Positions 1,269 to 36,083 of a DNA stretch of 44,831 nucleotides are shown here, piece after piece. The stretch's first letter is position 1, and every line of letters begins with the position of its first letter. Source of the DNA: a virus; IMG/VR virus record IMGVR_UViG_3300027668_001981, positions 1 to 44,831 of that record. One strand, 5' to 3'. The position numbers and the translations under genes are program-made. The notes under the pieces were generated by a model, which made no database searches, was not told where the DNA came from, and worked only from the letters and a program-made list of their open reading frames with translations.

Positions 1269-2112
1269 TTATTTCCTTTATTGTTATCATTTCTTTTATG
1301 CCTTGTACAAGTCCTTTAAAATTTATTTCATATGAACTTGTTGATTTTAAATTTTTAATATTATTAGCAGTTGCTGTATATGATGTATCTAATACATCTT
1401 TATCATTTAATAATATTATTGGGTCTTTTTTTCTTAATTCTGTTTTTATTATATTTGCTATATCAGATAATTTATATTTTTTATCATATACACAATTAAT
1501 TTCTTTATATACTGAACCAGACTCTATATAATAATCAATTAATTTTATTAAATCATCTATATAAAAAAAATCAAAATATCGATCTTTTTGTATTGATATG
1601 CTACAATGATTAAATACTTTGTTAATATTATTTTTTATAAATCTAGAGTCATTTTCTAATGGGCCAAAACATCCAAATAAACGTAGGTTATATACATTGT
1701 CAATTAAAGTAGCTGCTCTACTAGTAGTATATTTACCTAAACTATAATAATCCGTAGGAGTAATAATCTGATCAGACTCGGTGACTTGATCTATGTTAGT
1801 TGATCGATTATATTCAGCTCCTGAACCAAATATTATTATTCGATCAACTAAATTATTCATTTGTAATATATTTAAATCAGCTGATAAATTTTCTGATAAT
1901 GTATATTTTGAATCATCCCCTGGATGTCCTTTTATTGCAGTATGTATGATTACATTAATACTATTATCTTTGATAAATTTTTCTATACATTCTTTATCTA
2001 ATACATTTAAATCTTTACGAGTCGTAAATATCATATTATGTTTAGATATTAGGTTAGACGAACGTAAACTACGACCTATAAACCCATTTCCACCAGTAAT
2101 TAATACATTCAT
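1255..2112 (-). CDS. NAD(P)-dependent sugar epimerase/reductase (extended SDR)
   Basis: The 285-residue protein has an N-terminal Rossmann motif GGNGFIG (7-13) and the catalytic Y123-x3-K127 of extended short-chain dehydrogenases. Such enzymes epimerise, reduce or dehydrate nucleotide-bound sugars in the cytoplasm. It is somewhat shorter than RmlB or GalE (over 300 residues) and resembles the RmlD/4-ketoreductase size class. The exact substrate is unknown. It starts 4 nt inside the transketolase C-subunit gene (ATGA overlap) and belongs to the sugar cluster. It may act on the product of the RmlB homologue at 3912-4859, but that is only a guess from proximity. Confidence 0.8.
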   Translation of the reverse strand: MNVLITGGNGFIGRSLRSSNLISKHNMIFTTRKDLNVLDKECIEKFIKDNSINVIIHTAIKGHPGDDSKYTLSENLSADLNILQMNNLVDRIIIFGSGAEYNRSTNIDQVTESDQIITPTDYYSLGKYTTSRAATLIDNVYNLRLFGCFGPLENDSRFIKNNINKVFNHCSISIQKDRYFDFFYIDDLIKLIDYYIESGSVYKEINCVYDKKYKLSDIANIIKTELRKKDPIILLNDKDVLDTSYTATANNIKNLKSTSSYEINFKGLVQGIKEMITIKEINEKN

Positions 2113-2579
2113 CTTTTTAAATTTAAATAACTAGGTTTATTATTATATAAAAAATCTTCTAATGTCTTTGTGGATAATTTATTTGGTTTATATGCTATTA
2201 TATTATTTAATATATCAATAACTTTTAAATCTTCTTCTGCCCAATGAGAAAATCCTAAATATCCATAATCTTTGTCTCTTCCGCCGCCTACTAGTTTAAC
2301 GGGTATATTTTCGTGATGTAGATAGTTTCTTAAAAATTCAAATGGCCTATATAATAGGAATGGAGTAATTGAATATACAACAGGAATTTTGCCTTCCATT
2401 GCCATTCCAGTTGCAGCTCCAATCATTAATTGTTCTGCAGATAATACATTATGAAATCGATCTGGATAGTCTAATTTAATTTTATCCCATAGTCCATATC
2501 CTAAATCGCCAGTAATTAAATGTATCTTTTCATTAGATGCCATTTCGTTATATAAAAATTCTGCAAACTCTTTTCTCAT
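2109..2579 (-). CDS. Transketolase C-terminal-type subunit (pyrimidine-binding domain only)
   Basis: The 156 residues match the central, pyrimidine-binding domain of transketolase, including the SAEQ...GAATGMAMEG stretch (47 onward) with E49 as the probable thiamine-activating glutamate. The third domain of full transketolases is absent. With the gene upstream (ATGA overlap) it forms a split transketolase of the two-subunit type. Transketolases move two-carbon ketol units between sugar phosphates, and sedoheptulose 7-phosphate is a classic product. Here the pair probably supplies a precursor for an unusual sugar, because a SIS isomerase and a sugar phosphate cyclase are encoded nearby. The substrate is not known. 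Confidence 0.8.
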   Translation of the reverse strand: MRKEFAEFLYNEMASNEKIHLITGDLGYGLWDKIKLDYPDRFHNVLSAEQLMIGAATGMAMEGKIPVVYSITPFLLYRPFEFLRNYLHHENIPVKLVGGGRDKDYGYLGFSHWAEEDLKVIDILNNIIAYKPNKLSTKTLEDFLYNNKPSYLNLKR

Positions 2580-3196
2580 AATAATTCCTTTGCTTGTTTA
2601 TAATCTTGTTCACTCATAATATGATAATGTGCATTTAAACCTTTTAGACAAGGTAATTGATTTACTGTGGTATATTCAATGTTAATATTTGGCAAGAATG
2701 ATTTTAATCTATCTGTTAAGTACTTACTATCTATTTTATCATATGCCGCATATCCATTTATGTTTACATATACTTCTATATTTGATAAATTTGCTTCTTG
2801 TATATATCGTAACGACTCCCAAATAGATCCTTCGGCACATTCTCCATCACTTATTAAAACATATACTTTTCTATTCTTATTTGCCATTGCTCTGCCAACT
2901 GCAACTGTTATACCCATTCCTAAACTACCAGTAGAACAGTATATTCCATTTTCTTCATCTCTATGTGGATGACCTCCATGTTTTATAAATAATTCTTCAG
3001 CATTTACTCCTTCATATTTTTCTAATACTACATATAGTGCTACAGCAGCATGTCCAGATGAAAGTATAAATACATCTTCTTTATTTTTTGTTTTATATAT
3101 TTTATCAATAATATCAACAGAAGAAAAATAACTTCCTAAATGGCTTAGTTTATGTTTATAAGCAATTTCTAATATTTGGGTCTTTAATTTATTCAT
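2576..3196 (-). CDS. Transketolase N-terminal-type subunit (TPP diphosphate-binding)
   Basis: The 206-residue protein carries the thiamine diphosphate/Mg signature of transketolase: GSLGMG (90-95), SDGECAEGS (116-124) and a downstream Asn (N147) that would complete the metal site. The His-rich stretch around H49 and KHGGHPHRD (72-80) fits transketolase substrate-site histidines. It is shorter than the usual N-terminal subunit (about 270 residues). It overlaps the C-subunit gene by 4 nt, as expected for equimolar subunits. Assignment to the transketolase superfamily is confident. The real acceptor may be a polysaccharide-pathway intermediate rather than a pentose phosphate. Confidence 0.82.
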   Translation of the reverse strand: MNKLKTQILEIAYKHKLSHLGSYFSSVDIIDKIYKTKNKEDVFILSSGHAAVALYVVLEKYEGVNAEELFIKHGGHPHRDEENGIYCSTGSLGMGITVAVGRAMANKNRKVYVLISDGECAEGSIWESLRYIQEANLSNIEVYVNINGYAAYDKIDSKYLTDRLKSFLPNINIEYTTVNQLPCLKGLNAHYHIMSEQDYKQAKELL

Positions 3197-4868: not shown

Positions 4869-5855
4869 CTAAAATATATTTTTTACTGGTAAGTTTTCCC
4901 AATATTGTATCATTTCGTCTAACATGGTTTCAAATGTATATTCATGATTCCAACCTAATATTTTTTTAGCTTTAGAACAATCGCCTTTAAGAAATTTTAA
5001 TTCTTCAGCTCTATAAAATTTTTCGTCTAACTTAATATATTGTGTATAATCTAAATCTAATTTACCAAAAACATATTCTACTAAGTCTTGTACCGTATGA
5101 GATATACCAGTTGCACAAACAAAGTCATCTGGCGTATCATGCTGCAGCATTAACCACATACATTTTACATAATCTTTGGCATGACCCCAATCTCTACTAG
5201 CATCTAAATTACCTAATGTTAGTTTAGTTGATAACCCACATTTAATCTTAACTGCTTCTTTAACTACTTTATTAGTAACAAAATTTGTTCCTCTTCTAGG
5301 AGATTCATGATTAAATAGAATACCATTACTAATAAACATATTATATGCATTTCTATAATTGGTACATATATTATGTGAAAATACTTTAGCACATCCATAT
5401 GGCGAAACTGGTGCCATTGGAGTTGTTTCTCTTTGATATCCGTCTGAGTCTATATTATTACCAAACATTTCTGAACTGCCGGCTTGATAAATTCTTGTAT
5501 TTTTACAAGTTAGTCTTACAGCTTCTAATAAATTCAATGTACCCATACCTGTTGCATTAGCTGTATAGATAGGTTGATCAAAACTTATTCTTACATGACT
5601 CTGTGCTGCTAAATTATATATTTCATCAGGCTGAGCTTTTTGTAATACTTTAATTAGTGATGCCATATCAGTCATATCAGCATATTCTAATTTAAGTTGT
5701 TTAAATATATTGTCTGGAATTCTAGCTGTTTGATTTTCTGCAACTGAATTACGTTTTAATATTCCCCAAACTTCATATCCTTTTCCTAATAAAAATTCTG
5801 CTAGATATGAACCATCTTGTCCATTTATTCCAGTTATTAATGCTCGTTTATTCAT
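4869..5855 (-). CDS. gmd: GDP-mannose 4,6-dehydratase
   Basis: Family hallmarks cover all 328 residues: TGINGQDGSYLAE from residue 8, the SSEMFG active-site segment with S127/S128/E129, Y153-x3-K157 in SPYGCAK, FNHESPRRG (181-189), the LGNLDASRDWGHAKDY segment and RAEELKFLKGD near the end. Gmd converts GDP-D-mannose to GDP-4-keto-6-deoxymannose, the branch point to GDP-fucose, GDP-colitose and GDP-perosamine. It overlaps the ColD-like gene upstream by 8 nt. A GDP-fucose-synthase/ColC homologue follows that gene, so three consecutive genes read as a GDP-6-deoxyhexose pathway. The length is slightly shorter than the usual 340-370 residues. Confidence 0.95.
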   Translation of the reverse strand: MNKRALITGINGQDGSYLAEFLLGKGYEVWGILKRNSVAENQTARIPDNIFKQLKLEYADMTDMASLIKVLQKAQPDEIYNLAAQSHVRISFDQPIYTANATGMGTLNLLEAVRLTCKNTRIYQAGSSEMFGNNIDSDGYQRETTPMAPVSPYGCAKVFSHNICTNYRNAYNMFISNGILFNHESPRRGTNFVTNKVVKEAVKIKCGLSTKLTLGNLDASRDWGHAKDYVKCMWLMLQHDTPDDFVCATGISHTVQDLVEYVFGKLDLDYTQYIKLDEKFYRAEELKFLKGDCSKAKKILGWNHEYTFETMLDEMIQYWENLPVKNIF

Positions 5856-7002
5856 AACTATTAATTATATCTGTTATTTGTGATAATTCTTGTGATGTTA
5901 AATCTTGATGATTTGGTACATAAAATCCATATTTTTCTATTAATTCAGCATTTGGTAATTTTGGAATTGTATATTTGTCTTTCCACATTGGTTTGGATGC
6001 CATATTACCTGCTATTAAAGGTCTTACTTCAATATCAGCTGATATTAAGTCTTTTACTATATTATCTCGGTGTGTATGCATAATTGGCATAGCAAAGTTT
6101 GATATAGTATTATAAGTATGATTATCTAAATTTAATTTATTATTTGTAATCCATGAATTATATGTATTAAAATTATTTGTTCTTTTAACAACATAATTAT
6201 CTAATTTATCAATTGCACGAAGACCAATAAATGCTTGCAAATCAGTAGCTCGTAAATTAAATCCAGGTACATAAAAATTATATAATGCATCAAAATTACT
6301 ACAATCATTTTCTTTACGCAATTCGTCTTGTTTCCACTTTGGTAAATCTCTATCCCAGCCGTGACTTCTCATCATTAATAACATATGATAAAAATCTTCA
6401 TCATTAGTATTTATAAAGCCGCCTTCTATAGTTGATAGATGATGTCCAAAATACATAGAAAAGAAAGATGCAAACCCAAACGAACCTAAGTATTTATTAT
6501 TATATTTAGATCCCATACTTTCACATACATCTTCTAATAATTTAACATCATATTTTTTACATAACTCTATAACTTCTTGCATTCTAGGGACTAATCCTAA
6601 TGGAGACACTAAAATTAATGCAGCTGGATTGTTTTGTTTAAAAATAGATTCTAATTCTTTTAGATCACAAGATAGATCTTCTAAGTTACAATCGCACATT
6701 ATAGGATCTAAACCTAATAACATGGGAGAACTTACATCAGTTGCCCAACTCAATGCAGGAACAACTATTTTATTATTTTTTAATCTATCTGATTCATTTA
6801 GTGCTGCTAATGCTAATAATATAGCAGATGAACCAGAATTAACATATACTGAATATTTTGTTCCTATCTTTTTAGCCCACTTCTTTTCGAGTTTAGAAGT
6901 CAGATCCCCTTTTGTTAGCCTAGGGATTGGATCTTGTTGTAGCCATTCTATTAGAGCATTTATATCATCTCTATTTATTGTGTCACTAACTAATTTTGTC
7001 AT
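5848..7002 (-). CDS. DegT/AHBA-fold PLP enzyme, probable GDP-4-keto-6-deoxymannose 3-dehydratase (ColD-like)
   Basis: This 384-residue protein has the DegT/DnrJ/EryC1 sugar aminotransferase fold (VNSGSSAILLALAAL at 54-68, LLEDVCESMGSKYNNK near 155-170). Where true aminotransferases have SxxxxK with the Schiff-base lysine, it reads S182-MYFG-H187-H188 then TIEGG. Replacement of Lys by His is the hallmark of the C3-deoxygenating members ColD and RfbH. With Gmd directly downstream and an Fcl/ColC homologue directly upstream, conversion of GDP-4-keto-6-deoxymannose to the 3,6-dideoxy intermediate of GDP-colitose is the best reading. That is inference from residue and context. Perosamine-type amination seems unlikely without the lysine. 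Confidence 0.8.
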   Translation of the reverse strand: MTKLVSDTINRDDINALIEWLQQDPIPRLTKGDLTSKLEKKWAKKIGTKYSVYVNSGSSAILLALAALNESDRLKNNKIVVPALSWATDVSSPMLLGLDPIMCDCNLEDLSCDLKELESIFKQNNPAALILVSPLGLVPRMQEVIELCKKYDVKLLEDVCESMGSKYNNKYLGSFGFASFFSMYFGHHLSTIEGGFINTNDEDFYHMLLMMRSHGWDRDLPKWKQDELRKENDCSNFDALYNFYVPGFNLRATDLQAFIGLRAIDKLDNYVVKRTNNFNTYNSWITNNKLNLDNHTYNTISNFAMPIMHTHRDNIVKDLISADIEVRPLIAGNMASKPMWKDKYTIPKLPNAELIEKYGFYVPNHQDLTSQELSQITDIINSYE

Positions 7003-7897
7003 ATGATTTTAGTATTCCGTCTTTAAAACTAGTAAATTTAAAATTTGGTAATATAGATTTCATTTTATTATTAGATACATCTTTTCTATATTGGCCATCT
7101 AATTCTGGTTTGCTATATATAATATTAAGATCTTTTTTTAATATATCCAAAGTTTTTTCAGCCATTTCATTTATACTATAATTCCAGTCTGGTGCTATAT
7201 TAAAACTGTCTGTAATGTCTTTATCAATTACTTTAATTAATATTTTTGCTAAATCACCTGCATACATAAATTGCCTTAACGGTTTGCCAGTACCTAATAA
7301 ACGTAATTCTTTATCTGAATCTTTTATCTTTTTAAGTAATGCAGTAATAAAATGCATTTTAGTAGTATGATTAAAATTATCATGTTCTCCAAATAAGTTA
7401 CATGGAATTAAATAATTATATTTTGTACCGTATTGTTTATTATGAGAGTCAATTTGTACAGCCATAGCTCTTTTTGAGTATCCATAACTAAAATTAGTTG
7501 GAGCTGGTGGACCTTTATGTATATCTAATTCTGTCATTGGATATGTATCTACTACGTCTGGATAAATACATGTACTTAATATTCCGGTAAATCTTTTTAT
7601 ATTATATTCTTGACATACCTTTATTAATATAGTATTCATTAAAATATTTTCATTAAAGTATTCAGCTGGATATTTTATATTATCTTGTATGCCGCCTACT
7701 TTAGCAGCTAAATGTATTACATGATCAGGCATAATTGAAGAAATTAACCATTTTACTGCTTTAGGATCAGTTAAGTCACAATAACTACTATCGATATACA
7801 TAACATTAAATCCGCTAGGAAGTATTTCTTTCATATGAGTTGCAACCATACTACTTCCGCCTGTTATTAATATTGATTTTGACTTATCTTGTAGCAT
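6986..7897 (-). CDS. GDP-L-fucose synthase / GDP-L-colitose synthase homologue (Fcl/ColC)
   Basis: The 303-residue extended SDR matches the GDP-fucose synthase family: ITGGSSMVATH (11-21), HLAAKVGGI...N (62-73), STCIYP (108-113), Y138-x3-K142 in SYGYSKR, and PCNLFGEHDNF. Fcl performs 3,5-epimerisation and 4-reduction of GDP-4-keto-6-deoxymannose to GDP-L-fucose. ColC does the equivalent 5-epimerisation/4-reduction in GDP-L-colitose synthesis. Because a ColD-like 3-dehydratase overlaps it by 17 nt, I favour ColC or a dual role, but the sequence alone cannot separate the two. Its start lies 14 nt inside the cyclase gene. Confidence 0.85.
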   Translation of the reverse strand: MLQDKSKSILITGGSSMVATHMKEILPSGFNVMYIDSSYCDLTDPKAVKWLISSIMPDHVIHLAAKVGGIQDNIKYPAEYFNENILMNTILIKVCQEYNIKRFTGILSTCIYPDVVDTYPMTELDIHKGPPAPTNFSYGYSKRAMAVQIDSHNKQYGTKYNYLIPCNLFGEHDNFNHTTKMHFITALLKKIKDSDKELRLLGTGKPLRQFMYAGDLAKILIKVIDKDITDSFNIAPDWNYSINEMAEKTLDILKKDLNIIYSKPELDGQYRKDVSNNKMKSILPNFKFTSFKDGILKSYDKIS

Positions 7898-8882
7898 TAT
7901 ACTCCGTAAGATATAATTCTATTTCACTATATTCAACTTCTTCTAAAAACATATTACCAGGAGCTTTTGTTAACACACAATTTAATTTATTACTAATATT
8001 CTTTTTATCTTTTTGTAAAGCAATAATTAATTGTTCTATATTAGGCAACTTAATATTATGATATATACTACTCAACGTTTTTTGTATTCTTTTAAATAAT
8101 TCAAATGTTATATATCCTTTTCTATATGAAATAAAATTAGATACATCCATTCCAACTGAAACTGCTATACCGTGTGCAATTTCGTTATTTGTAACTGATT
8201 CAATAGCATGTCCAAAAGTATGACCATAATTTAATATTAATCGTTCTTTTTTATCAAATTCATCTATTTCTACATATGTTCGTTTAATGTCTAAACATCT
8301 TGTAGTTAATTTTTTAAAGTCATGTTGATTTTTTAGAAAAAATTCATAATCAGCTTTACTTGATACTAAAAAGAAGTGTAACATTTCACCTAATCCAGAT
8401 TTAATATCTATTTCTGTAAGAGTATCTAGAAATTCATTACACACAATAACTTTATATGGAGGATAAAAATTACCTAATTGATTTTTATATGTATTAAAAT
8501 TAATTGAAGTTTTGCCGCCAATACAGCTATCGCCTTGAGCTAATAATGTAGTAGGATAAAATACCCATTCAACTCCTCGAAATAATATTGAAGAAATAAA
8601 TCCTACAACATCTTGTGTAATACCTCCGCCTACTGCAATTAGTTTATTTTTTTTATTAAATTTTCCAATAATAGAATTTATTATAGCAGATATATTATTA
8701 AAGTCTTTTGTTTGTTCTGTTACATTATTTAATTCTATACATGTATATTTCTCTAACTCTGAAGTATATAACATATTATCAAATATGATAATGTCACCAT
8801 CATTATATATTTGACCGATAGATTTAATAAAGTTATTATTAAATTCTACTGTGTAGTTACGTATTGATGACTTTATTTTCAT
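7884..8882 (-). CDS. 3-dehydroquinate synthase-like sugar phosphate cyclase
   Basis: The 332-residue protein has the NAD-binding GGG (85-87) with TQD, the FRGVEW...PTTLLAQGDSCIGGKT block (101-125), a KxGLGE metal glutamate (E166), NYGHTFGHAIES (218-229) and HGIA (237-240), so the Zn ligands of the family are kept. The residue three after the metal glutamate is His169, where dehydroquinate synthases normally have Lys (EVIKYG). No other shikimate gene is present, and transketolase and SIS genes lie nearby. A cyclase acting on sedoheptulose 7-phosphate (2-epi-5-epi-valiolone synthase type) or a related aldose is therefore at least as likely as AroB. The precise product is unknown. Confidence 0.8.
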   Translation of the reverse strand: MKIKSSIRNYTVEFNNNFIKSIGQIYNDGDIIIFDNMLYTSELEKYTCIELNNVTEQTKDFNNISAIINSIIGKFNKKNKLIAVGGGITQDVVGFISSILFRGVEWVFYPTTLLAQGDSCIGGKTSINFNTYKNQLGNFYPPYKVIVCNEFLDTLTEIDIKSGLGEMLHFFLVSSKADYEFFLKNQHDFKKLTTRCLDIKRTYVEIDEFDKKERLILNYGHTFGHAIESVTNNEIAHGIAVSVGMDVSNFISYRKGYITFELFKRIQKTLSSIYHNIKLPNIEQLIIALQKDKKNISNKLNCVLTKAPGNMFLEEVEYSEIELYLTEYNATR

Positions 8883-9553
8883 GTAATAGAGAAACCTCCG
8901 TCTACTATGATATTTTGTCCGGTAATATATGTATTTTGATTACTACATAGAAACATTACAATTCTAGCAATTTCAGATGGGTCTGCCATCCTACCCATCG
9001 GTACATTTGAAACTAATTCTTTTATTTGTTTTTTTGATAATATACCATTTGTTAATTTAGTATTAGTAAATCCAGGTGACACTGTATTAACTTGTATATT
9101 ATATTTTGCTAATTCAACAGCTAATGTTTTTGTCATTCCTATTAATGCAGACTTCGATGTTGTATATGACAATCTTTTTGATATTGTTTTATCTCCCCAA
9201 ATGGATGCAATGTTAACTATCTTTCCACTTTTTTGTTTTTTCATATGCTTAGATACATGCTTTGAAATTAAAAATGGTGCTTTAACATTTACCTGCATAA
9301 TATCATCAAAATCTTCATCTTTAATATCATGGAGTTCATCAATAGTATTAATGCCAGCACAATTTACCCAAATGTCAATATCAGGTAATTCTTCTAGTAG
9401 TCTTATAATACTCTCATTAGATTTAAAGTCAGCAAGTTTAGAATTAGTAACTATAACATTGCCTTTAAATTGATCGAATAGTGCAGCTACTGCACTTCCT
9501 ATCCCACCAGTACCGCCTGTTACTAAAATGGTTTTATTTGAAAAGTCAAACAT
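8879..9553 (-). CDS. Short-chain dehydrogenase/reductase (FabG-like)
   Basis: A classical SDR of 224 residues: TGGTGGIG cofactor motif (12-19), NCAG (64-67), catalytic S117, Y130 and K134, and the C-terminal TGQNIIVDGG segment typical of FabG-type ketoreductases. It oxidises or reduces a hydroxyl/keto group with NAD(P). It sits between the SIS isomerase (TAATG junction at 9553) and the sugar phosphate cyclase (4-nt overlap). It may therefore act on the cyclised product, giving a modified cyclitol or sugar. The direction of the reaction and the substrate are inferred only from context. Confidence 0.85.
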   Translation of the reverse strand: MFDFSNKTILVTGGTGGIGSAVAALFDQFKGNVIVTNSKLADFKSNESIIRLLEELPDIDIWVNCAGINTIDELHDIKDEDFDDIMQVNVKAPFLISKHVSKHMKKQKSGKIVNIASIWGDKTISKRLSYTTSKSALIGMTKTLAVELAKYNIQVNTVSPGFTNTKLTNGILSKKQIKELVSNVPMGRMADPSEIARIVMFLCSNQNTYITGQNIIVDGGFSIT

Positions 9554-10164
9554 TACTTTAAAGGATTTCTAGATAATGGCAAAGCTGTTCCTTTTCTTAT
9601 AACTTCAGCTTTAATTGAAGGACATTCTGCGCCGCATGCATGTATTAAATCATAAAATAAAATTAATGATAATACTTCTACCGTATGAAAATAGTTACAA
9701 TCTAATACTACATTATTAACATCTGGTTCTAATAATTGTCTATCTTGTCCAGCTATCATAGCAGTTTTAAATCCATTTTTCTTTGCCCAATGACAACATG
9801 AAACTACATTTTTAGATCCGCCGGAGCATGATAAAGCAACAATCATTGCATCTTTTTTCATTGCACCTGTTTTCTTTTGTAATTCTAACCAACTTATGAA
9901 TAAATTGTTATATCCATAATCATTTGCTATACTTGTTATTAAGCATTGGCTATCTAATGTCTTAACATTTTTTACAATCCCAGCTTTTGCAAACAATCTT
10001 GTACAATCATCCGCTGCATGGTTTGCAACTCCCCATAAGCCGCCGTTAGCAACTAAATATATATCGCTGCTAGCAGCAAAATCTTTTTCAAATTGTTTCC
10101 ACTGTTTTGTAGCTAACGTTTTTTCAAACTTTTCTTCTAAATTTTCAAAATCTATATTACTCAT
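9553..10164 (-). CDS. SIS-domain sugar phosphate isomerase (GmhA/phosphoheptose isomerase-like)
   Basis: The 203 residues resemble GmhA-type single SIS domains: an NGGLWGVANHAADD block (40-53) in the place of GmhA's GNGGSAADAQH, and CSGGSKN (113-119) as the phosphate-binding serine/glycine loop. GmhA isomerises sedoheptulose 7-phosphate to a heptose phosphate. The first loop deviates (LWGVAN rather than SAADAQ), so the substrate may differ. It is the first gene of the SIS-SDR-cyclase set and is preceded by a clear ribosome site, GAAAGGAATAC, before the ATG. It may supply or consume sedoheptulose 7-phosphate made by the split transketolase. Confidence 0.78.
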   Translation of the reverse strand: MSNIDFENLEEKFEKTLATKQWKQFEKDFAASSDIYLVANGGLWGVANHAADDCTRLFAKAGIVKNVKTLDSQCLITSIANDYGYNNLFISWLELQKKTGAMKKDAMIVALSCSGGSKNVVSCCHWAKKNGFKTAMIAGQDRQLLEPDVNNVVLDCNYFHTVEVLSLILFYDLIHACGAECPSIKAEVIRKGTALPLSRNPLK

Positions 10165-10664: not shown

Positions 10665-10693
10665 AATATAATAATTATTTAGGAAAAATCCTA
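10665..10693 (-). promoter_or_regulatory. Promoter-like element: TAGGAT, 17 nt, TATATT
   Basis: On the minus strand a TAGGAT box is followed after exactly 17 nt by TATATT. The box overlaps the TAG stop of the upstream aminotransferase gene. It would drive the secreted repeat protein, leaving a leader of about 14 nt that still contains the AAAAGGAAT ribosome site. It is one of nine elements with identical spacing in the window. Promoter activity is inferred. Confidence 0.6.
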
Positions 10694-11851
10694 ATTTAAA
10701 CTAAGTTTTATTATGTCAATAGCCATATTAATTTCTTCAGAATTAACAGCTAAATTTGGTCTCATACGAACACTATGAGTTCCGGTGGGATTACATATCA
10801 TTTTATTTGAAAATAATTTAGAACAAAAATCATCACGTAGTTTAGTTGACTTAAAATCGAACGCAATTAATAGTCCGGTTTGTCGAACATTATGTATATT
10901 AGATAATTTATTTAATTCTTTAAATAGTAGTTTACCTTGTTTATTAACATTCTTTTTTAATTGATCATTATCAATAGTATTAATAATATATTTACATCTA
11001 ATCATGTCAACTAAATCACCATCATATGTTACTGATAATCTTTTTTGATTTTCAAATACTTTAGAGTGTGACTTTTTAACCATTATTCCAGATACTTGCG
11101 ATTTCTTTCCATATACAATGATATCTGGTTCTATTTTTAATTGTTTTGAATACCAAATTGTTCCGGAAGATAAAAATCCAGTCTGAACTTCATCAAATAT
11201 TAGTGGAATATCAAATTGTTTACAAATTTTTGATAATGATTGTAATTCTTTTTTATTTAAATAATTATCTCCATATGTTGCTTGTATTGGTTCTACGATA
11301 ACTCCTTGCAAATTATATGGATTTGATTGAACATGACTAATAGCATCTTTAATTGTATTAGCTACTGGCCAATTATATTCTCCAGGTATATCTCCTTGTC
11401 TTAATTTAACTCCTGGAAATCTAGAAGTAATAATATTGCCAACTGAATTAATGCCATGAAAACTGTTTTTTATAGATAATACATATCCATCTGGTCTTGG
11501 GCCTTTATACCACATTGCTGTTTTAATCGCAGCTTCATTGGCTAATGCACCAGTACATGTAAAATGATAATTTTCATATTTACCCATTGATGTAAACTTT
11601 TTAAACGTTTTGTAGAATTCATCAAATTCATCACTTAACATTTCACAGTTTACCATTTTAAGTTTAGAAACACGATATATTTCTTCTTTAAATTCTTTAC
11701 TATTAAATACTGGGTGATTATAGCCTATAGGCAATGATGAGTACATTCCCATAAAGTCTAGATAATATTTATTTGTATTTTTGTCAAATACATAACTTCC
11801 TAAACTCTTATCAAAATCTATTTTTATATTAAATACACTAGTTCTATTCAT
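10691..11851 (-). CDS. Class III aminotransferase, lysine 6-aminotransferase (LAT)-like
   Basis: The 386-residue PLP enzyme shows class III features: GYNHP (43-47), CTGALANEAAIK (99-110), SFHG (130-133), EPIQ (187-190), the IFDEVQTGF block with D220, and the PLP lysine in IIVYGKKSQVSG (K249/K250), closest to the FGKKTQ motif of lysine epsilon-aminotransferases. The ending, with RMRPNLAVNSEEI, also fits. The natural substrate in this setting is unlikely to be free lysine metabolism for its own sake. It starts 8 nt inside the cytidylyltransferase-cupin gene, so it may aminate a sugar or attach an amino acid-derived group. Class certain, substrate unknown. Confidence 0.82.
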   Translation of the reverse strand: MNRTSVFNIKIDFDKSLGSYVFDKNTNKYYLDFMGMYSSLPIGYNHPVFNSKEFKEEIYRVSKLKMVNCEMLSDEFDEFYKTFKKFTSMGKYENYHFTCTGALANEAAIKTAMWYKGPRPDGYVLSIKNSFHGINSVGNIITSRFPGVKLRQGDIPGEYNWPVANTIKDAISHVQSNPYNLQGVIVEPIQATYGDNYLNKKELQSLSKICKQFDIPLIFDEVQTGFLSSGTIWYSKQLKIEPDIIVYGKKSQVSGIMVKKSHSKVFENQKRLSVTYDGDLVDMIRCKYIINTIDNDQLKKNVNKQGKLLFKELNKLSNIHNVRQTGLLIAFDFKSTKLRDDFCSKLFSNKMICNPTGTHSVRMRPNLAVNSEEINMAIDIIKLSLN

Positions 11852-12947
11852 ATATATGGTCTATATCATCTCTGCTTACTGCTAAACGTATTGCTTGTTT
11901 AGTTCCTGCTGCTGTTATTTTATGTCGTTTATTTCTTTCAATAAAAACTATATCTCCTTCTTTTACACTCATTGTTTTGCCATCAACAAACCAATCCCAT
12001 TCTCCTTTAATAATATACCACCATTCATCCCAATCATTATGATAATGTAACCTATTTCCTTCGCCTGGCATTTGGCCTATTAATGTTGATCTAGTTGATT
12101 TAGAATTTATTACTGTGTGTGACCATGATTCATTATTAGGATTTGAATCTATAATATCTTGAACTTTAGTTATTTCTTTATTAAAATTATATAAGTTGTT
12201 ATTAATGACTCCATCTTGAGCTAATACTCGTTCTACATTGTGGTCAAATACTTTACCTGGCTTATAATATTGTGGATCTTTTGGTTTAGCTGCTAATATT
12301 GATTCTGCTAATAAAAAATCATCTTCTTCGTCTATATCAACAGTTGCATATCCAGTTAATTCAAAAAATCCTATTTTACCTTCTCCGCCATGGTATCCAC
12401 ATCCATATTCATCCATATTCATCATATAGTTATCATACTGCCAGGCCATTAAAGAGCATGCATACGCATATACTGGTTCTAATAACTGACTTGGAGGTGA
12501 TTGTTTCTTTTGATTAAAATTAATAGGTTGATCTTTATATATAGATTCAATTTTTACTTTGCTAGTAGATATTAATGTATCATATCTTAATGACTTATTT
12601 ACAAATTCTTTTATTTGTGTACTAGTTATAAATGGGGATGTTGCTAATAATTGAATTAACATATCTCCATTAATATTATGCATGAAGTCTAATGTAAAGT
12701 CATCATTTGTAGCTTCATCTCTGGAAAGGTGTTTTGGTCTTTTATAAAATTTTACCCCATATTCATCTGCTATTTCTTTGAATATATCTGATTCTGAGTT
12801 TATAACAATTTCATCAAATACATTGGCTTCTTTAGCTGCTTCTATGATATGAGCTACTAATGGTTTATTACCTAGTAATCTTAAATTTTTATTAGGTACT
12901 CTTTTACTTCCCAATCTAACAGGAATCATTGCAATAATTTTTTTCAT
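11844..12947 (-). CDS. CMP-sugar synthetase-like cytidylyltransferase fused to a cupin domain
   Basis: Residues 1 to about 230 look like the NeuA/KdsB cytidylyltransferase family: IPVRLGSKRVPNKN (8-21) with the basic nucleotide loop, the KPLVAHII segment, and INGDMLIQLLATSPF. These enzymes activate sialic-acid-like sugars as CMP conjugates. Residues from about 275 to 367 form a second domain, a cupin with LHYHNDWDEWWYIIKGEW and a PxH-like RNKRHK ending, as in nucleotide-sugar isomerases or sensors. The fusion is unusual. It overlaps the four-domain glycosyltransferase gene by 4 nt, and that protein ends in a sialyltransferase-like domain, so it may make the donor for it. The key acidic residues of NeuA were not checked one by one. 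Confidence 0.75.
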   Translation of the reverse strand: MKKIIAMIPVRLGSKRVPNKNLRLLGNKPLVAHIIEAAKEANVFDEIVINSESDIFKEIADEYGVKFYKRPKHLSRDEATNDDFTLDFMHNINGDMLIQLLATSPFITSTQIKEFVNKSLRYDTLISTSKVKIESIYKDQPINFNQKKQSPPSQLLEPVYAYACSLMAWQYDNYMMNMDEYGCGYHGGEGKIGFFELTGYATVDIDEEDDFLLAESILAAKPKDPQYYKPGKVFDHNVERVLAQDGVINNNLYNFNKEITKVQDIIDSNPNNESWSHTVINSKSTRSTLIGQMPGEGNRLHYHNDWDEWWYIIKGEWDWFVDGKTMSVKEGDIVFIERNKRHKITAAGTKQAIRLAVSRDDIDHIYE

Positions 12948-15900
12948 TTTACAAAATTTTCTACTAAATAATCATCTAGTACTAATGAGTTGTTATAATA
13001 TTTTTTTACTATCTTTTTAAAATAATCAATTTGTGGTTGCTGATGATGTATATCCATTCTTAAATCATTAAAATTTGGTATTTTATCTTTATTAAGTTTA
13101 AAGTTACCAGCTTCTTCTGCAGCTTCTTGATATGTATCGTTATAAATTTCTCCAAACGTATTCATGTTATAAAAAGTCATACCAGTTACAAATAATTCTT
13201 TTATATTATAATTTAATAATGCTATAATACCCATTAAACCTGTATTTGCTGTTGTTCCTATTTCATTAAAACATTTAAGTATATAATCGTCACTAATATT
13301 GTGCCAATCAACTGTTAGCTTACTCATAAATTCTTTTATTATAGGTGTTTCATGTCCTGATACCATTGCTCCTATAATATGTTTTAATGAATTTGTAAAA
13401 GTTGTATTTTCTGATATTGCTGTTCTTTTATGCTCATTAAAACAATTTATAACTATATCAGTTTTACTTCCATAATCGGCCCAATCACTTTTAGGCATTT
13501 CATATGATTGATTTATTCTTACTACTAAATCGTATGAGTCAATAAGTTTCCCTAATCCTTTACCTTTAAGATGCGGAGACGGACATACATATGCAATTCG
13601 TTTATTTTCTATTATATTTTTTAGTTTAGTGTCTAAAATATAATCATTAAATGAATTTGATAATTGATCTGCAGGCGGCGGCGCTGACGATTGCCATTGT
13701 GGAGGCATTTTATCTAATGGAATGTTAATTATATTATTTTTAGTTTTACCATACCATTTATTATCTAAATGTTGTAATATATTTTTATACATTAAATCTT
13801 CTGTTATACAATATTTATTAGCTGTTTCTAGATTACGTTGTATAGAGTTAAATTTATCAATATATGTTTTATTATCTAATGATGAAAGTATTTCTTGTAA
13901 CTCATCTAAATTTGAAAATGTTAATATACTATCAGTGTCAAAATAATCTGATATATTTGGACATCCCCAATATATTGGAATAGTACCAACCATTAAGCAA
14001 TCAATTAATTTTTCAGTAAAATAATTTTCTAATCTAATATTTTCTATAATTATAGAATATTGATAATCTACTAATCCATCTTCTTTAGCCATTAAGGGAT
14101 TTGAAGTTCCATTTCCTAATAAGTCTACTCCAGATTTTAGCATGCTGGCAATTTGATGTCTAAGCTTATGTCCTTCTGTTGTAGTTTTATGCGAATATAT
14201 CATAGACATAAATCTAGTTTTATCATATAATCCGTAATTATTGCTTTTTATCCATGTTCCTCCAAAATTACAAAGTTTAGTATTATCTGGATATTTTTTT
14301 AGTAATTCAGAATCATGTGTTAATACAAAATCATATTCATCTTTCCACTCATTAAATGTATTATATGATATAGGATTTATTTCTCTACATTCAAGTAACC
14401 ATGCAATTTTGTGCTTGCTATCAACTGATTTTGCAACTGAAGTATTTACCATACTGTCAGTGACCAATGTTATACCATCATATGTTTGTTTATCTCTTAC
14501 ATATTTAATGTGTTTTGGTATTTTTCTATGAACTTGCGAATATCTGCCAGCTGGAGTTTCTAGATGTTTAAATGCTTCATCAATTAGATTTATTTCGGTA
14601 GTAGGTAAATCATCTGTTAAACAAACCCATTCATCTGGAAATATATCTATAGTTTTATAATGATTATTTTTAGGTCCAAACCATTTATCTGGATATATTA
14701 CGGTTTTATCTGGATTTGTATTTAAATAAGCTGACCACCAGCTAAATGTAGAATTTGCTATAATATGATGTTCACATAAAGACATAGCATATAAGTCAAT
14801 ATAATCTTGTTCATTCTCTATAAACTGAAATTGATCTCCTTTAAAATTTTCTTTACACCATTCAATATCATCACTACATATTAAAAATGTTTTTCCTGGA
14901 AAATAGTCTATTGCATTAAAATAATAATTTAAACTTAAATTATGATGATATTCACTTAAGTTTGTATAATTTCCTCTTCGTACGTGTAATGAAACAACGC
15001 CTTTACCAGTATTATATTTTTCTTGTATATATTGAATATGTTGTGGCTTAGGAGCAAACATGTTAATAATATCATTTTTAATATGATAAAAATATTTATA
15101 CGATTGAAAATATCCACTTAGTTTAACGTTGGTATTTGGTAATTCTATATTGCTATATCTAAAAGTATCCATATTAGAATTAGCATAAGTGTCTAATGAT
15201 TCAATTGAAACAGGCTTTATTCTTCCTAATATATTATCTTCATACATATTAGGGTGTGTATGCAATGTTCCAGTATGAGTAAAGTCGCATACAAGATTAT
15301 GATTTGTATTTGTAGCAATACCTTTTGCTGATGCTAATTGAAACATCATATTGCCTAATCCTCCACCTAATACTGGAACTATGTTATATTGAGGTGATTC
15401 TAAATAATCATATGGAGTTTTTGATCTTATTTCTACTTCTTGACCTTCTGGATCGTCTATATCTTTATTTTGTCGATTTAATCCACGAGCTACAATTTCA
15501 GGATCTTCATTATATGCATAAGTTGGAAAATCTAATACTCCAATTTTATATTTAGGACACATTTCCATACAAAAAAATGAAACAGCTAAATCTTCTGCAT
15601 TATAATAATATTCTCCAGATTTACTCCAAATAAGATCTTCTTTTTTTATTTTATTATATAAGAACCATCTAAAACTTCTTAAATGGCTGGCTCTCCATGT
15701 ATCTTGTCTATATAGCTTTTTTGAGTGTACTTCATCAGAATATGGAGTATTTTGTGGAAATGCTAATTTTCCAGACGGATGTGAATACATTCCGCCATAT
15801 GTCATCCAAGGATCATGTTTGTTATAATATTCATTTAATTTTTCTAGTACATCATCATTAATTAACCAATCGTCCCCATCCACAAACATTAGAATATCAT

Positions 15901-16180
15901 CTTTATGATCCATAAAATTTATAATATGATCTTCATTAGGATTTACATTGAATCCACGCTGTTTGTTTTCTGTCCAATTTAATAATGTCCAATTATTTAA
16001 TTTATGAGTATCTATTATATCTTGTACAATAGTTGCAGTATCATCTGTAGATGCATCATTTATATATAATACGTCATAATTAGTATATGTTTGATTAACA
16101 ATACTTGCAATATTAGTTTCTATCCATTTTTTGTTGTTATAAGATGGTATAACTATTTTAAATTTATTTTTCTTTTCCAT
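12944..16180 (-). CDS. Four-domain glycosyltransferase: GT2 + GT11 + GT10-like + GT29-like
   Basis: This 1078-residue protein reads as four glycosyltransferases in tandem. Residues 1-245 are GT2 (IPSYNN, YINDASTDDT, DGDDW at 101-105). Residues 262-525 are GT11, the alpha-1,2-fucosyltransferase type (GGGLGNMMFQ 272-281, HVRRGNY 399-405, NSTFSWW 476-482). Residues 550-800 are GT10-like, the alpha-1,3-fucosyltransferase type (SIIIENIRLENYFTEKLID from 709, then GTIPIYWGCPNI). Residues 850-1078 are GT29-like, with sialyl motif L (CPSP...LIDSYDLVVRIN), motif S (ANTGLMGIIALL...VTGMTFY) and a late HH (1045-1046). GDP-fucose/colitose genes and a CMP-sugar synthetase in the cluster match the expected donors. 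There is no transmembrane segment, so it is probably cytoplasmic. Overlaps of 28 nt upstream and 4 nt downstream. Confidence 0.85.
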   Translation of the reverse strand: MEKKNKFKIVIPSYNNKKWIETNIASIVNQTYTNYDVLYINDASTDDTATIVQDIIDTHKLNNWTLLNWTENKQRGFNVNPNEDHIINFMDHKDDILMFVDGDDWLINDDVLEKLNEYYNKHDPWMTYGGMYSHPSGKLAFPQNTPYSDEVHSKKLYRQDTWRASHLRSFRWFLYNKIKKEDLIWSKSGEYYYNAEDLAVSFFCMEMCPKYKIGVLDFPTYAYNEDPEIVARGLNRQNKDIDDPEGQEVEIRSKTPYDYLESPQYNIVPVLGGGLGNMMFQLASAKGIATNTNHNLVCDFTHTGTLHTHPNMYEDNILGRIKPVSIESLDTYANSNMDTFRYSNIELPNTNVKLSGYFQSYKYFYHIKNDIINMFAPKPQHIQYIQEKYNTGKGVVSLHVRRGNYTNLSEYHHNLSLNYYFNAIDYFPGKTFLICSDDIEWCKENFKGDQFQFIENEQDYIDLYAMSLCEHHIIANSTFSWWSAYLNTNPDKTVIYPDKWFGPKNNHYKTIDIFPDEWVCLTDDLPTTEINLIDEAFKHLETPAGRYSQVHRKIPKHIKYVRDKQTYDGITLVTDSMVNTSVAKSVDSKHKIAWLLECREINPISYNTFNEWKDEYDFVLTHDSELLKKYPDNTKLCNFGGTWIKSNNYGLYDKTRFMSMIYSHKTTTEGHKLRHQIASMLKSGVDLLGNGTSNPLMAKEDGLVDYQYSIIIENIRLENYFTEKLIDCLMVGTIPIYWGCPNISDYFDTDSILTFSNLDELQEILSSLDNKTYIDKFNSIQRNLETANKYCITEDLMYKNILQHLDNKWYGKTKNNIINIPLDKMPPQWQSSAPPPADQLSNSFNDYILDTKLKNIIENKRIAYVCPSPHLKGKGLGKLIDSYDLVVRINQSYEMPKSDWADYGSKTDIVINCFNEHKRTAISENTTFTNSLKHIIGAMVSGHETPIIKEFMSKLTVDWHNISDDYILKCFNEIGTTANTGLMGIIALLNYNIKELFVTGMTFYNMNTFGEIYNDTYQEAAEEAGNFKLNKDKIPNFNDLRMDIHHQQPQIDYFKKIVKKYYNNSLVLDDYLVENFVK

Positions 16181-17130
16181 ATATCTATATCGTAATGAAT
16201 TCTATACAATTCTTTACTCTTTTTACTACATTCGTTATAAAATTCAATATTATCCCGTAACTTAATTGCTAATTTCCTTGCTGACTCTATATCATCTATA
16301 TCTACACATAAATCAGGATGACATAATTTTTGTGTATCTACTTTTTCATTTCCAATACAAGGAACTCCAAAATATGCACAATTTAAGCTAAAAGTTCCTG
16401 CGGCAATAGTAGGCATTAAATGTACTGCATATTTAAATGAAGATACTTCACTCATCCAGTCTAACCAACTAACTCTAGGTAAATGCATTAAATTTGGAAC
16501 TTGATCTTCATGTTCGCGCTTTGCATGAGATTCTTGAGTCCATATTGGCATATTGAATTCTGATGCAATTAAATAGCTTTGAAATCCATTATACCATCTA
16601 GCAAAATTACCTCCAATTAATACTTTGTCTTGTCTAACAGGAACTATGTCTTTTATACGTTCTTCAATCATTAATGTTGGTATAGTTCGAATTATTTGAG
16701 TAGGAACTAAGCCTTTATAAAATTTTTGATCATACTCATTATGTGCATATATAGCATCTACTGATGCTAACATATTATAAAAATTAAATTGGTCTTGAAT
16801 TTCTAATTCTGTAAACATCCATGTAGGACCTTCTTGAACGTAATATACTTTTTTATTATTTTCTTTTAATACAGATAGCCAATTACTATTTAATAGTTCA
16901 GAATGTGGATTTGGAATATTTGTTAATTTTGCAGCTACTGCATTTAAATTTAATTGTCCTTTAGGAAATATTACAAATACATGATCTTGGTCTTTTACTT
17001 CGCTATATTTAGATATTGGATAATGAGTTGCATCCAGTGCGTTCATCCATGCAAATTCTGTTCGCATATTTGGATGACTGATATCAATAGACCCTTTAAA
17101 GCCCATTTCTGTTAAAAATACAGTTTTCAT
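16153..17130 (-). CDS. Probable GT-B-fold glycosyltransferase
   Basis: The 325-residue protein does not show a clean family motif. Its layout fits a GT-B glycosyltransferase: an N-terminal half with VYYVQEGPTWMF (114-125) and VDAIYAHNEYD, and a C-terminal half with LIGGNFARWYNGFQSY, LMPTIAAGTFSLNCAYFGVPCIGN and a late DIESARKL segment that resembles the donor-binding region of GT4 proteins. The donor glutamates of GT4 are not obvious. The gene lies between the aminotransferase-fold gene (4-nt overlap) and the four-domain enzyme (28-nt overlap). The assignment rests on fold-like layout and context. Confidence 0.6.
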   Translation of the reverse strand: MKTVFLTEMGFKGSIDISHPNMRTEFAWMNALDATHYPISKYSEVKDQDHVFVIFPKGQLNLNAVAAKLTNIPNPHSELLNSNWLSVLKENNKKVYYVQEGPTWMFTELEIQDQFNFYNMLASVDAIYAHNEYDQKFYKGLVPTQIIRTIPTLMIEERIKDIVPVRQDKVLIGGNFARWYNGFQSYLIASEFNMPIWTQESHAKREHEDQVPNLMHLPRVSWLDWMSEVSSFKYAVHLMPTIAAGTFSLNCAYFGVPCIGNEKVDTQKLCHPDLCVDIDDIESARKLAIKLRDNIEFYNECSKKSKELYRIHYDIDIWKRKINLK

Positions 17131-18278
17131 TTATTAAAAAATTCTTTTATTTTATCACAAACATAATCTACATCTTGTAATCCCATACCATGATGTGCTC
17201 CTAATAAAAATCCATTTTTCATAACCAGATCAGCATTAGTAAAGTCTTGTAAATACTCTCTATATATAGGATGTCTTGTTACATTACCTGCAAATGTTAC
17301 TCTAGTTTGAATATTATTATTTTCTAAAAAAGTTAATAATTCTAATCTTTTATCTGTTTGTAGTGGAATTGCTAACCAATTTGGTTCTATACTATCGTCT
17401 GGAAGTATTAATTCGTTAACGTCTTTTAAATTATCTAAATATCTTTCAATATTATCTCTTCGTTTTTGTTTAAATGTTTGAAATCTATCTAATTGTACTA
17501 AACCAAATGCTGCACTCATTTCACTACATTTCATGTTATAACCTAATACTCCATATAAAAATTTGTAATCATATGGTAATCCATCAACTTCATGTGAAAA
17601 TCGTTCATCTATATTTTCATTATTGTCGCCAATCCTACCCCAATCTCTATACTGCAAAGCTTTTTTTACATATTTTTCGTCATTAAACATTACCATTCCA
17701 CCCATTCCGCCGGCAGTTATAACATGACTAGCATAAAAACTAGTAGTAGAAACATCTGAATCTAATGTTTTAGTAACTGTGTCAGCTGAATCTTCAATTA
17801 TGTAAATGTCTTCTCGTCCAATTCTTTTTAATTCTTCCTTAAGAAGTTTCCAATCAGGTTTGTTTCCTATAAGATTAGGAACCATTATGGCTTTAACATC
17901 ATCAGTTATTGCGTCTATAATATCTTGTACATTTGGAACATATGACTTAAGATTTGAATCTATAAATATAGGAATATATCCTAATTGTATTATAGGAGCT
18001 AACGTTGTTGAAAATGTTAAAGCTGGTGTAATAACTTTACTTCCTTTTTTAAGATCTAATGCAGCTAGTGCTAATAAACAAGCAGATGAGCCAGAGTTTA
18101 CAAATACTCCATACTTTTTTCCAAACTCTTTTGCAATCTTTTCTTCAAATTCAATAGATCTAGGTCCAAATCCAGCTAACCAACCATCTCTGAGACATTG
18201 TTCTACAGCTTTAATTTCTTTTTCGCCATACGCTTCCAATTTATTAGGAGCATACCATATTTTTTTAGATTGTTTCAT
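17127..18278 (-). CDS. DegT-family PLP enzyme, RfbH-like but lacking the Fe-S cysteines
   Basis: The ATG at 18278 is chosen; the frame is open further upstream only from a TTG, deep inside the preceding gene. The 383 residues are closest in layout to RfbH-type C3 dehydratases: VNSGSSACLLALAALDLK (60-77), IIEDSADT (160-167), RDWGRIG, LPYDYKFLYGVLGYNMKCSEMSAAFGL and QKRRDNIERY. The Schiff-base lysine position holds His185 (SFYASH, 180-185), as in RfbH and ColD. The cysteines that bind [2Fe-2S] in RfbH are absent (the region reads GDNNENIDERF), so it would work as a ColD-type dehydratase or do something else. Its substrate is unknown, and it is the second such enzyme in the cluster. Confidence 0.78.
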   Translation of the reverse strand: MKQSKKIWYAPNKLEAYGEKEIKAVEQCLRDGWLAGFGPRSIEFEEKIAKEFGKKYGVFVNSGSSACLLALAALDLKKGSKVITPALTFSTTLAPIIQLGYIPIFIDSNLKSYVPNVQDIIDAITDDVKAIMVPNLIGNKPDWKLLKEELKRIGREDIYIIEDSADTVTKTLDSDVSTTSFYASHVITAGGMGGMVMFNDEKYVKKALQYRDWGRIGDNNENIDERFSHEVDGLPYDYKFLYGVLGYNMKCSEMSAAFGLVQLDRFQTFKQKRRDNIERYLDNLKDVNELILPDDSIEPNWLAIPLQTDKRLELLTFLENNNIQTRVTFAGNVTRHPIYREYLQDFTNADLVMKNGFLLGAHHGMGLQDVDYVCDKIKEFFNK

Positions 18279-18897
18279 ATAATTTATTTTGCGTTTCTTG
18301 TTTTTCAATAGTTTTAGGATGATGAAATGCAAATTCTTCTTTAGGTGGCAAATGTGAATAGTTTTTTATTCCTTTAATTTGCTCATGTACTTTGCCGCTC
18401 CATTCAATATCATGATGTCTTTTATATATTCTTCCTTGATAATCTGGCCAATTGACCCAGCCGGCTTCGTTAACTTGCCATCCCCATTTACTTACATGTT
18501 GTTCAGTTAATCCTTCTACAGTATTAATTCGAGGAACATTTATTAATTCGGTGTCTGGATTTACTTCAATAATTTGATGTATATTTTGTAATAATATAGA
18601 AGATGGCAGTTCGTCTGCGTCAATATTAAAAATCCAATCACAATCTTCAAATAAATGGTATCCTAAATTTTTAAATGTTGCAAAATCTTTATTTAAATTA
18701 CTATATATTAATCTAAACGAATCGTTGCCTGGAATTACAAATTGATTACATAATCCTTGTACTTCTTTGCTATAATTTTCTTCATCTAATAATATACCAA
18801 TACAGTCTGATTTTCTAATATTAGTACGAAGTAAAACTAATAGTTTAGCTAATTCATCATATTCATTACACGCTGTTATAAAATATCCTATTTTCAT
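18265..18897 (-). CDS. Glycosyltransferase family 2 protein
   Basis: A compact 210-residue GT-A protein: the first strand reads IGYFITACNEYDEL (3-16) and the metal-binding DADE is at 93-96 (WIFNIDADELP). The second half has RINTVEG, WPDYQGRIYKR and GKVHEQI, a pattern shared with LPS-core-type GT2 enzymes. It would transfer one sugar from a nucleotide donor. It starts within the preceding glycosyltransferase gene (4-nt overlap) and runs 14 nt into the aminotransferase-fold gene. No membrane anchor is seen. Confidence 0.82.
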   Translation of the reverse strand: MKIGYFITACNEYDELAKLLVLLRTNIRKSDCIGILLDEENYSKEVQGLCNQFVIPGNDSFRLIYSNLNKDFATFKNLGYHLFEDCDWIFNIDADELPSSILLQNIHQIIEVNPDTELINVPRINTVEGLTEQHVSKWGWQVNEAGWVNWPDYQGRIYKRHHDIEWSGKVHEQIKGIKNYSHLPPKEEFAFHHPKTIEKQETQNKLYETI

Positions 18898-26955: not shown

Positions 26956-28206
26956 TTATGTTTTAAAAAATTTATTAAATTGATTTGCATCAGTAGTTGA
27001 TATACTATCACCACCAAATTTCTTATATGTTTTCTTGTATGTTGCATACACATTCATTGCATTGTCAGGATCGTCAAACATTGAATGTAATGACAATATA
27101 ACATCATATAAGTCTTTTGGAATTGCTGTTTCTAATAATTCAACATGATTATTTACTAGTTTACTAACATCTTTTGCAATATCTACATATAAATGTGTAT
27201 TATGTATAACCATTCTTGGCATACCTTCTTGACTATATCTATCTAAGCCTTTTGCTGTCTGACCTCCTAGATAATCATATGTAAAGTCATTACATGCAGG
27301 ACATCCTAAGCTGCATGGTACATGTTTACTAGTGTCAATATTAACTATAGGATTTGCCATATTTGCATGCTTTTTTCTTCTATATTCATTATTCTTAGGA
27401 AAATATAATTCAGTAAATGTTTGTGTCTTATAATTTCCAGAATGAAGATATGTTCCAAAGACTGGATATTGTCCTGGTGAGCTAGAATCAGTTGAAAATA
27501 ATACTCTATTATCAGTTAACTTATTAATTAACTTTTGTAATGTTGCTAGTATAAAAAAGTCTGATATTTTTGATATTCCTAGTAAATGTATATATTTTAT
27601 ATGATTCTTTTCAAATTCTCGTTCTTTAAGCATTAATGCTATAACATACATAAAATCTACTAATTTTTTAGGACCTCCAATACACCAGCCATTAAATGCA
27701 AAGTCTTTAAACTTATGATACCATTGTTCATATTCTTCATGATACGTACCTTGTATAACATTTAAAAAGTCTGTCTTGCCAGTTTGTTTAGATTCAAAAT
27801 ATTTAAAATTATCAAAGCTAATATCCATTGACTCGGCAAATCTATTTTCATACTTTGCTCTAGGTGGTATATCTAAGTTAGCTGCTACATCAGAATTATG
27901 TTCTAGCCATTCAAAGATTCTTTCACGAATTGTGCTATCCCATTTTAACGCACCAGTTGCTATTTGGAATCCGCCTGAATCTCCAAATACTAATACCTCA
28001 TCATCTAGTCCCATTTGATCTCGAAAATCCATCTTCTTAAAATGATGGCCAGCGGTAATTAAGAAATATGGATGTCTCCATTCTTTTGGATACTCTTTTG
28101 AAAAGAATCTTGTTGTAACTCCATCTTCAAATTTTGTATTCTTCTTGAATGCAGACACCATACTACCTGCAGATAATGATGGATAATATATAAAATTTTT
28201 ATCCAT
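26956..28206 (-). CDS. dpdA: DpdA-like DNA 7-deazaguanine transglycosylase (TGT superfamily)
   Basis: The 416 residues match the tRNA-guanine transglycosylase fold: VFGDSGGFQI (73-82) with catalytic-type D76, NVIQGTYH (149-156), CIGGPKKL (175-182), LLGIS (208-212), and FSTDSSSPGQ (237-246) with D240 as probable nucleophile. A zinc site is formed by C298, C302, C305 and H335/H338. Its place among replication genes, with FolE, QueD and QueE in the window, makes it a DNA-modifying DpdA rather than a tRNA enzyme. It would exchange guanine in phage DNA for a 7-deazaguanine, which can block restriction. The exact base is not known. Confidence 0.85.
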   Translation of the reverse strand: MDKNFIYYPSLSAGSMVSAFKKNTKFEDGVTTRFFSKEYPKEWRHPYFLITAGHHFKKMDFRDQMGLDDEVLVFGDSGGFQIATGALKWDSTIRERIFEWLEHNSDVAANLDIPPRAKYENRFAESMDISFDNFKYFESKQTGKTDFLNVIQGTYHEEYEQWYHKFKDFAFNGWCIGGPKKLVDFMYVIALMLKEREFEKNHIKYIHLLGISKISDFFILATLQKLINKLTDNRVLFSTDSSSPGQYPVFGTYLHSGNYKTQTFTELYFPKNNEYRRKKHANMANPIVNIDTSKHVPCSLGCPACNDFTYDYLGGQTAKGLDRYSQEGMPRMVIHNTHLYVDIAKDVSKLVNNHVELLETAIPKDLYDVILSLHSMFDDPDNAMNVYATYKKTYKKFGGDSISTTDANQFNKFFKT

Positions 28207-35807: not shown

Positions 35808-36083
35808 TTATATTAAATTTAATAATTGATTTGTTTTTTTATTTACCCAATTTTCATCTTTGTCTGGATTTTGTACATGTAACAGTTCATGTACTATTGA
35901 TTCTTCGCAAAGATCTATATCATGATAAATAATTCCTTCTTTTTTCTTGAAGTCTCGTTCAATGCCTACAAAATATGTTTCGCCATTATATATGATTTGA
36001 TTGGAATCTATTTTTTTTGTAGTTATTTGCCAATCACTTATTCCGAAGCTAGTTTGCCATTTCTTTATTAAAAAATCAATCAT
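35808..36083 (-). CDS. HExxH metallopeptidase-like protein
   Basis: The 91 residues contain SIVHELLHVQNPDKDENW with HELLH (65-69), the classic zinc-binding motif of metallopeptidases. A third ligand is not obvious, and the protein is much smaller than most proteases, like the small SprT or DUF45-type phage proteins. It overlaps QueE by 4 nt and is probably co-expressed with the deazaguanine genes. Peptidase activity is inferred from the motif only. Confidence 0.7.
   Translation of the reverse strand: MIDFLIKKWQTSFGISDWQITTKKIDSNQIIYNGETYFVGIERDFKKKEGIIYHDIDLCEESIVHELLHVQNPDKDENWVNKKTNQLLNLI

Follow-up and report, generated by a model that had tools for sequence, protein, structure and literature searches.

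Prokaryotic members of glycosyltransferase (GT) family GT29, best known from animal sialyltransferases, have been published as sialyltransferase-like proteins of bacteria (Petit et al. 2018; PMC5811610), in a paper whose main text nowhere mentions viruses or phages, and BFVD includes one named phage GT29. The family is thus less exclusively eukaryotic than the initial annotation of the present locus, which called it chiefly so, would suggest. Multidomain viral glycosyltransferases are likewise already known. In A111/114R of the algal chlorovirus PBCV-1 (PMC7826918), galactosyl-, xylosyl- and fucosyltransferase domains share one polypeptide, and among phages there are three-domain GT2-GT11-GT10 proteins (L004-L012 and L060) as well as GT11 and GT10 proteins of cyanophages S-SRM01 and S-CAM9. 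For the sugar donors, the closest described system is the bacterial O-antigen set gmd-colD-colC, which provides GDP-colitose.

The locus described here lies in a window of 44,831 nucleotides, positions 1 to 44,831 of an IMG/VR record, which is a genome fragment of an uncultured T4-like virus. In the phage collection, the DNA polymerase of this virus has its nearest counterpart, at 44%, in a Microcystis phage. Its central gene joins GT2, GT11, GT10 and GT29 domains in a single chain. Like the bacterial GT29 proteins, the GT29 part is prokaryotic, has sialylmotif-like blocks and lacks a membrane anchor, but it differs in being encoded by a phage, in its fusion to GT10 and in its tie to a CMP-sugar cassette that shows no NeuB. 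The chain resembles A111/114R, and would work alike, in that one viral polypeptide carries several GT domains with a fucosyltransferase among them, whereas the chlorovirus protein has no GT29 and no CMP-sugar. The three-domain phage proteins are 45-62% identical over residues 1-804 but end before the GT29 domain, and their contigs carry no CMP synthetase; the cyanophage proteins are homologues at roughly 32-40% identity. In tblastn searches of the annotated phage collection, no place covered 80% of the chain and the GT29 part found no match. Among open-licence papers no report of a phage GT29 or of a four-GT phage protein was found; both the four-family chain ending in GT29 and the constant link of the phage GT29 lineage to a CMP-sugar cassette are new in the sense of being undescribed in that literature.

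Four glycosyltransferase families in one chain

The features of the locus are collected in Table 1. The reading frame proposed in the initial annotation was confirmed; its strand, left unstated there, is minus. Its four families also held up, profile searches having placed every segment in a GT family and the C-terminal one in GT29, and all of the motifs it quoted are present, those of GT2, GT11 and GT10 being kept in relatives. In a Pfam search of the whole protein, GT2 (PF00535; residues 9-162, 1.9e-17), GT11 (PF01531; residues 345-520, 7.1e-25) and GT10 (PF00852; residues 653-771, 1.2e-08) exceed their curated cut-offs, and the GT11 domain further matches PHROG 2644 at 5.2e-62. The acidic motif of GT2 is kept in relatives as DGDDW or DADDW, the GT11 motif as HxRRGxY, and the E-N...Y-x-T-E-K motif of GT10 reads ENIRLENYFTEK in the chain versus ENSKTDNYFTEK in most relatives. 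The α1,3-fucosyltransferase structure 2nzw is a sequence match of the GT10 domain in the PDB and also ranks first among the fold matches of the full-length model, which retrieves GT10 enzymes, other GT-B fucosyltransferases such as NodZ and FUT8, GT29 enzymes and GT2-like structures; with a pLDDT of 72 and a pTM of 0.48, the arrangement of the domains in that model is unreliable. The 1078 residues contain no long hydrophobic stretch, and the chain is predicted to be soluble.

Table 1. Annotated features of the locus, in window coordinates
Feature	Coordinates	Strand	Evidence
Four-domain glycosyltransferase chain, 1078 aa	12944..16180	-	ORF list, Pfam, full-length model
GT2 domain, residues 1-262, acidic motif DGDDW	15395..16180	-	Pfam
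GT11 domain, residues about 263-524, HVRRGNY and NSTFSWW	14609..15394	-	Pfam, PHROG
GT10 domain, residues about 525-804, motif ENIRLENYFTEK	13769..14608	-	Pfam, PDB
GT29-like domain, residues 805-1078	12947..13768	-	Pfam, PDB profile, Foldseek
Sialylmotif L-like block, residues 860-891	13508..13603	-	Profile alignment to ST6Gal1 and ST3Gal1
Sialylmotif S-like block NEIGTTANTGLMGIIALL, residues 972-989	13214..13267	-	Kept in 13 family members
Candidate VS-like block DIHHQQPQIDYF, residues 1043-1054, invariant His	13019..13054	-	Conservation
CMP-sugar synthetase (PseF/NeuA-like) fused to cupin; 4-bp overlap with GT gene	11844..12947	-	Pfam 5.6e-25
Class III aminotransferase, in linked cassette	10691..11851	-	Pfam 1.8e-53
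SIS-domain GmhA-like isomerase	9553..10164	-	gmhA 5.9e-13, below its cut-off
Short-chain dehydrogenase	8879..9553	-	Pfam
AroB-related sugar-phosphate cyclase (TIGR04425-like)	7884..8882	-	7e-106, 354 bits against cut-off of 400
GDP-mannose 4,6-dehydratase (gmd)	4869..5855	-	PDB 2.4e-102
ColD-like GDP-4-keto-6-deoxymannose 3-dehydratase	5848..7002	-	PDB ColD/WbdK 1.7e-58; next RfbH-type 1.6e-32
GDP-L-fucose synthase / ColC-like	6986..7897	-	PDB GDP-L-fucose synthase 5.1e-58

The assignment of the C-terminal domain to GT29 draws on several kinds of evidence. Within the whole protein the GT29 model (PF00777) matches residues 865-954 at 1.1e-4, its 22.2 bits lying just under the cut-off of 23, whereas the excised domain scores 24.3 bits (2.4e-5) and GT29 likewise passes the cut-off in a search of the whole record. 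All 13 family members match PF00777 (E<=1), and a profile built from them retrieves only GT29 sialyltransferases from the PDB (best E 0.0015). An AlphaFold model of the domain (pLDDT 82, pTM 0.83) is weak around residues 1005-1045; its best 30 PDB matches in Foldseek point to the sialyltransferase fold (GT-A variant 2), 29 being GT29 sialyltransferases and one, 5cxy at rank 24, a glycosyltransferase entry that carries no name, with E from 1.7e-6 and modest TM-scores of at most 0.48. The NEIGTTANTGLMGIIALL block is a putative sialylmotif S, to judge from motif order and its NTG core, and DIHHQQPQIDYF may by its position be the VS motif, in a region where model confidence is low nearby; no block was assigned to motif III. 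A remote structural match of the same model is an HPPK structure of Methanocaldococcus.

Junction and module shuffling

Alignments to seven three-domain relatives (GT2-GT11-GT10 alone) cover residues 1 to 804-806, and those to 12 GT29-like sequences, 10 of them separate genes, begin at 805-815 and span essentially the rest of the protein; the two parts are therefore joined cleanly, end to end. Other viral contigs repeatedly carry the GT2-GT11-GT10 protein, which stops at residue 804, and the GT29 part occurs elsewhere as a stand-alone gene or fused to another domain. The first three domains are themselves separable: homologues of GT2 and GT11 are neighbouring separate genes in L014, as are those of GT2, GT10 and GT11 in L015, and separate GT11 genes in L014, L015, L013 and L018 align to residues 267-521 of the chain. 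L024 and L033 each encode a GT2-GT10 protein next to one that is GT29-like in its second half; the N-terminal half fused to GT29 there (L033 5116-5970, L024 5095-5960) has no Pfam match in L033.

The closest view of such rearrangement comes from L033, whose neighbouring genes are 86-94% identical in nucleotides to those of the window (73% for the short-chain dehydrogenase gene), and which between those flanks carries two genes of different composition; the modules have thus been shuffled. Identity to L033 is 0.95 ahead of the gene start, drops to 0.65 and lower within the gene, rises again to about 0.7-0.9 over the GT29 part and returns to 0.98 past the gene end, a pattern most simply explained by exchange of the entire transferase segment. 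GT29 thus circulates in phages as a shuffled module, and natural one-gene and two-gene versions in closely similar surroundings offer a way to compare the construction of glycan assembly lines. The pieces of the chain are under purifying selection, as seen from dN/dS, which is 0.11 for GT2 and 0.32 for GT11-GT10 against L011 and 0.14 (L024) or 0.34 (L033) for GT29.

The initial annotation had proposed searching viral metagenomes for the same domain order, and this turned up only identical contigs, three from IMG/VR with the window included; the two others match at 100% over 15,234 bases and may stem from related samples. Outside this identical population, seven viral scans returned no four-domain relative. 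A Thaumarchaeota MAG contig (L030, JACAFS010000027.1) was considered as a cellular home and rejected, with the cassette in one of 200 genomes of the class; its 11.7-kb stretch around the cassette contains nothing but sugar genes of this type, and a misbinned phage contig is likelier.

Donor-sugar genes

The synthetase that overlaps the GT gene matches PseF (7.1e-24, below the cut-off of that model) and, in the PDB, the CMP-Neu5Ac synthetase 1qwj (4.6e-16). In every lineage found, a CMP-sugar-synthetase gene directly follows the GT29-like gene. Across 28 contigs, all 15 with GT29 also carry the synthetase and all 13 related contigs without GT29 carry neither, a count to which no probability is attached as the contigs are related, partly fragments and picked by GT content. 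The AroB-like cyclase is present in 12 of the 15; in L037 and L041 the sequence as retrieved breaks off near the cassette, and L025 has no cyclase. This constant linkage supports the CMP-donor role previously proposed for the GT29 domain, though not sialic acid itself as the sugar. A NeuB-type condensing synthase (PF03102) was found in none of nine records, a 165-kb contig among them, some of which may be fragments, nor was a KdsA/DAHP-type synthase found in the records searched, and consequently to call the product sialylated, as the initial annotation did, goes beyond the evidence. The acid could also come from an enzyme of the host. Tentatively, and with more doubt than confidence, we suggest that the phage GT29 lineage transfers a CMP-activated sugar other than classical sialic acid, made by its own cassette of CMP synthetase, cupin, aminotransferase, SIS isomerase, dehydrogenase and AroB-like cyclase, and that it would here form the fourth station of a single-chain line adding four sugars of a complex surface glycan. 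Since GT29 is tied to a repeatable CMP-sugar gene set, expression of a defined cassette offers a route to the donor.

Two further gene types accompany these cassettes. A transketolase split into two adjacent genes (window 2109-3196) also lies beside the GT29 cassette in L025, L027, L030 and others, and a GTGPSL-type protein sits inside the GT29/CMP cassette of L030, L035, L039, L040 and L042, being MptE-like by Pfam in L030, L035 and L039.

Similarly, the earlier suggestion of a fucose- or colitose-type donor is strengthened by the homologues of gmd, colD and fcl/colC that stand consecutively in the window as in the bacterial O-antigen set, here phage-borne and with colitose as a putative product. 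The adjacent genes could supply either GDP-colitose or GDP-fucose. The reductase matches Fcl and may be either Fcl or ColC. For the middle gene, in which histidine replaces the PLP lysine (FGHHLSTIEGG), the best match is clearly ColD, and GDP-colitose is therefore no less likely a product than GDP-fucose. A second DegT-type enzyme with histidine for the PLP lysine (ASHVITAGG; window 17127-18332) is closest to the CDP-4-keto-6-deoxyglucose 3-dehydrase RfbH.

Proposed function and alternatives

Taken together, the chain would have arisen by in-frame fusion of a GT29-like CMP-sugar transferase of phages to their recurrent three-domain protein. During infection the phage may make GDP-colitose or GDP-fucose through Gmd, ColD and Fcl/ColC, along with a CMP-activated acidic sugar from the cassette that follows the GT gene. 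With these donors the chain would attach as many as four sugars to a single acceptor glycan made by the host, lipopolysaccharide or another surface glycan being the likeliest, and the changed cell surface might block competing phages. The domain identities, the fusion anatomy, the shuffling and the co-occurrence with donor genes are observed; the activity, sugars, linkages, acceptor, order of action and benefit are those the genes suggest. The gene sits in a compact run of sugar genes, nearly all of which overlap or abut as in an operon. Its four domains, next to genes that could make the activated sugars, suggest a compact assembly line that decorates a surface. That surface would most likely be the host's, given that glycosyltransferases of pelagimyophages are read as modifiers of the host O-chain, a reading itself inferential (PMC7029224). 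As a whole, this account of a fused four-module chain fed by phage donors and decorating a host surface glycan is probable, with appreciable room for others.

The same enzymes might instead decorate fibre or capsid proteins of the virion. A111/114R does build a capsid glycan (PMC7826918), and the phage appears to bring its own donors and transferases, but no acceptor protein was identified and the related marine clusters are read otherwise; we regard virion decoration as a real, though rather unlikely, alternative. Whether every module acts is a separate matter, for the chain could be mainly a scaffold in which recombination has left one or two modules, perhaps the fused GT29, without activity or as vestiges. 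The fused GT29 copy evolves faster than the neighbouring CMP synthetase (dN/dS 0.34 versus 0.045), and in the family alignment it departs at five otherwise invariant positions and lacks, as L040 does, a loop of about 13 residues; its role could have changed or been reduced. The departures are mostly conservative, however, the reading frame is open with the conserved motif blocks intact, and the CMP-synthetase cassette next door is kept and under strong purifying selection, such that the scaffold reading seems improbable, somewhat more so than virion decoration. That assembly or sampling has artificially joined separate genes we consider very improbable indeed: although the fused form is confined to three identical contigs, and elsewhere a GT29 piece joined to unrelated sequence (L043) was set aside as a probable chimera, the three IMG/VR contigs differ in length yet agree at 100% over 15 kb, the junction is in frame exactly between the module ends, and the flanking synteny is that of a relative on both sides. 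Host-surface decoration by a four-module chain is accordingly the reading we prefer.

Beyond the sugar genes, the window encodes TGT-like (26956-28206), radical SAM (36080-36886), PTPS/QueD-like (36837-37304) and GTP cyclohydrolase I (37304-37963) proteins, possibly a 7-deazaguanine DNA-modification set, together with a UvdE-type UV endonuclease (33231-33842) and a Cpn10 chaperonin (35049-35348).
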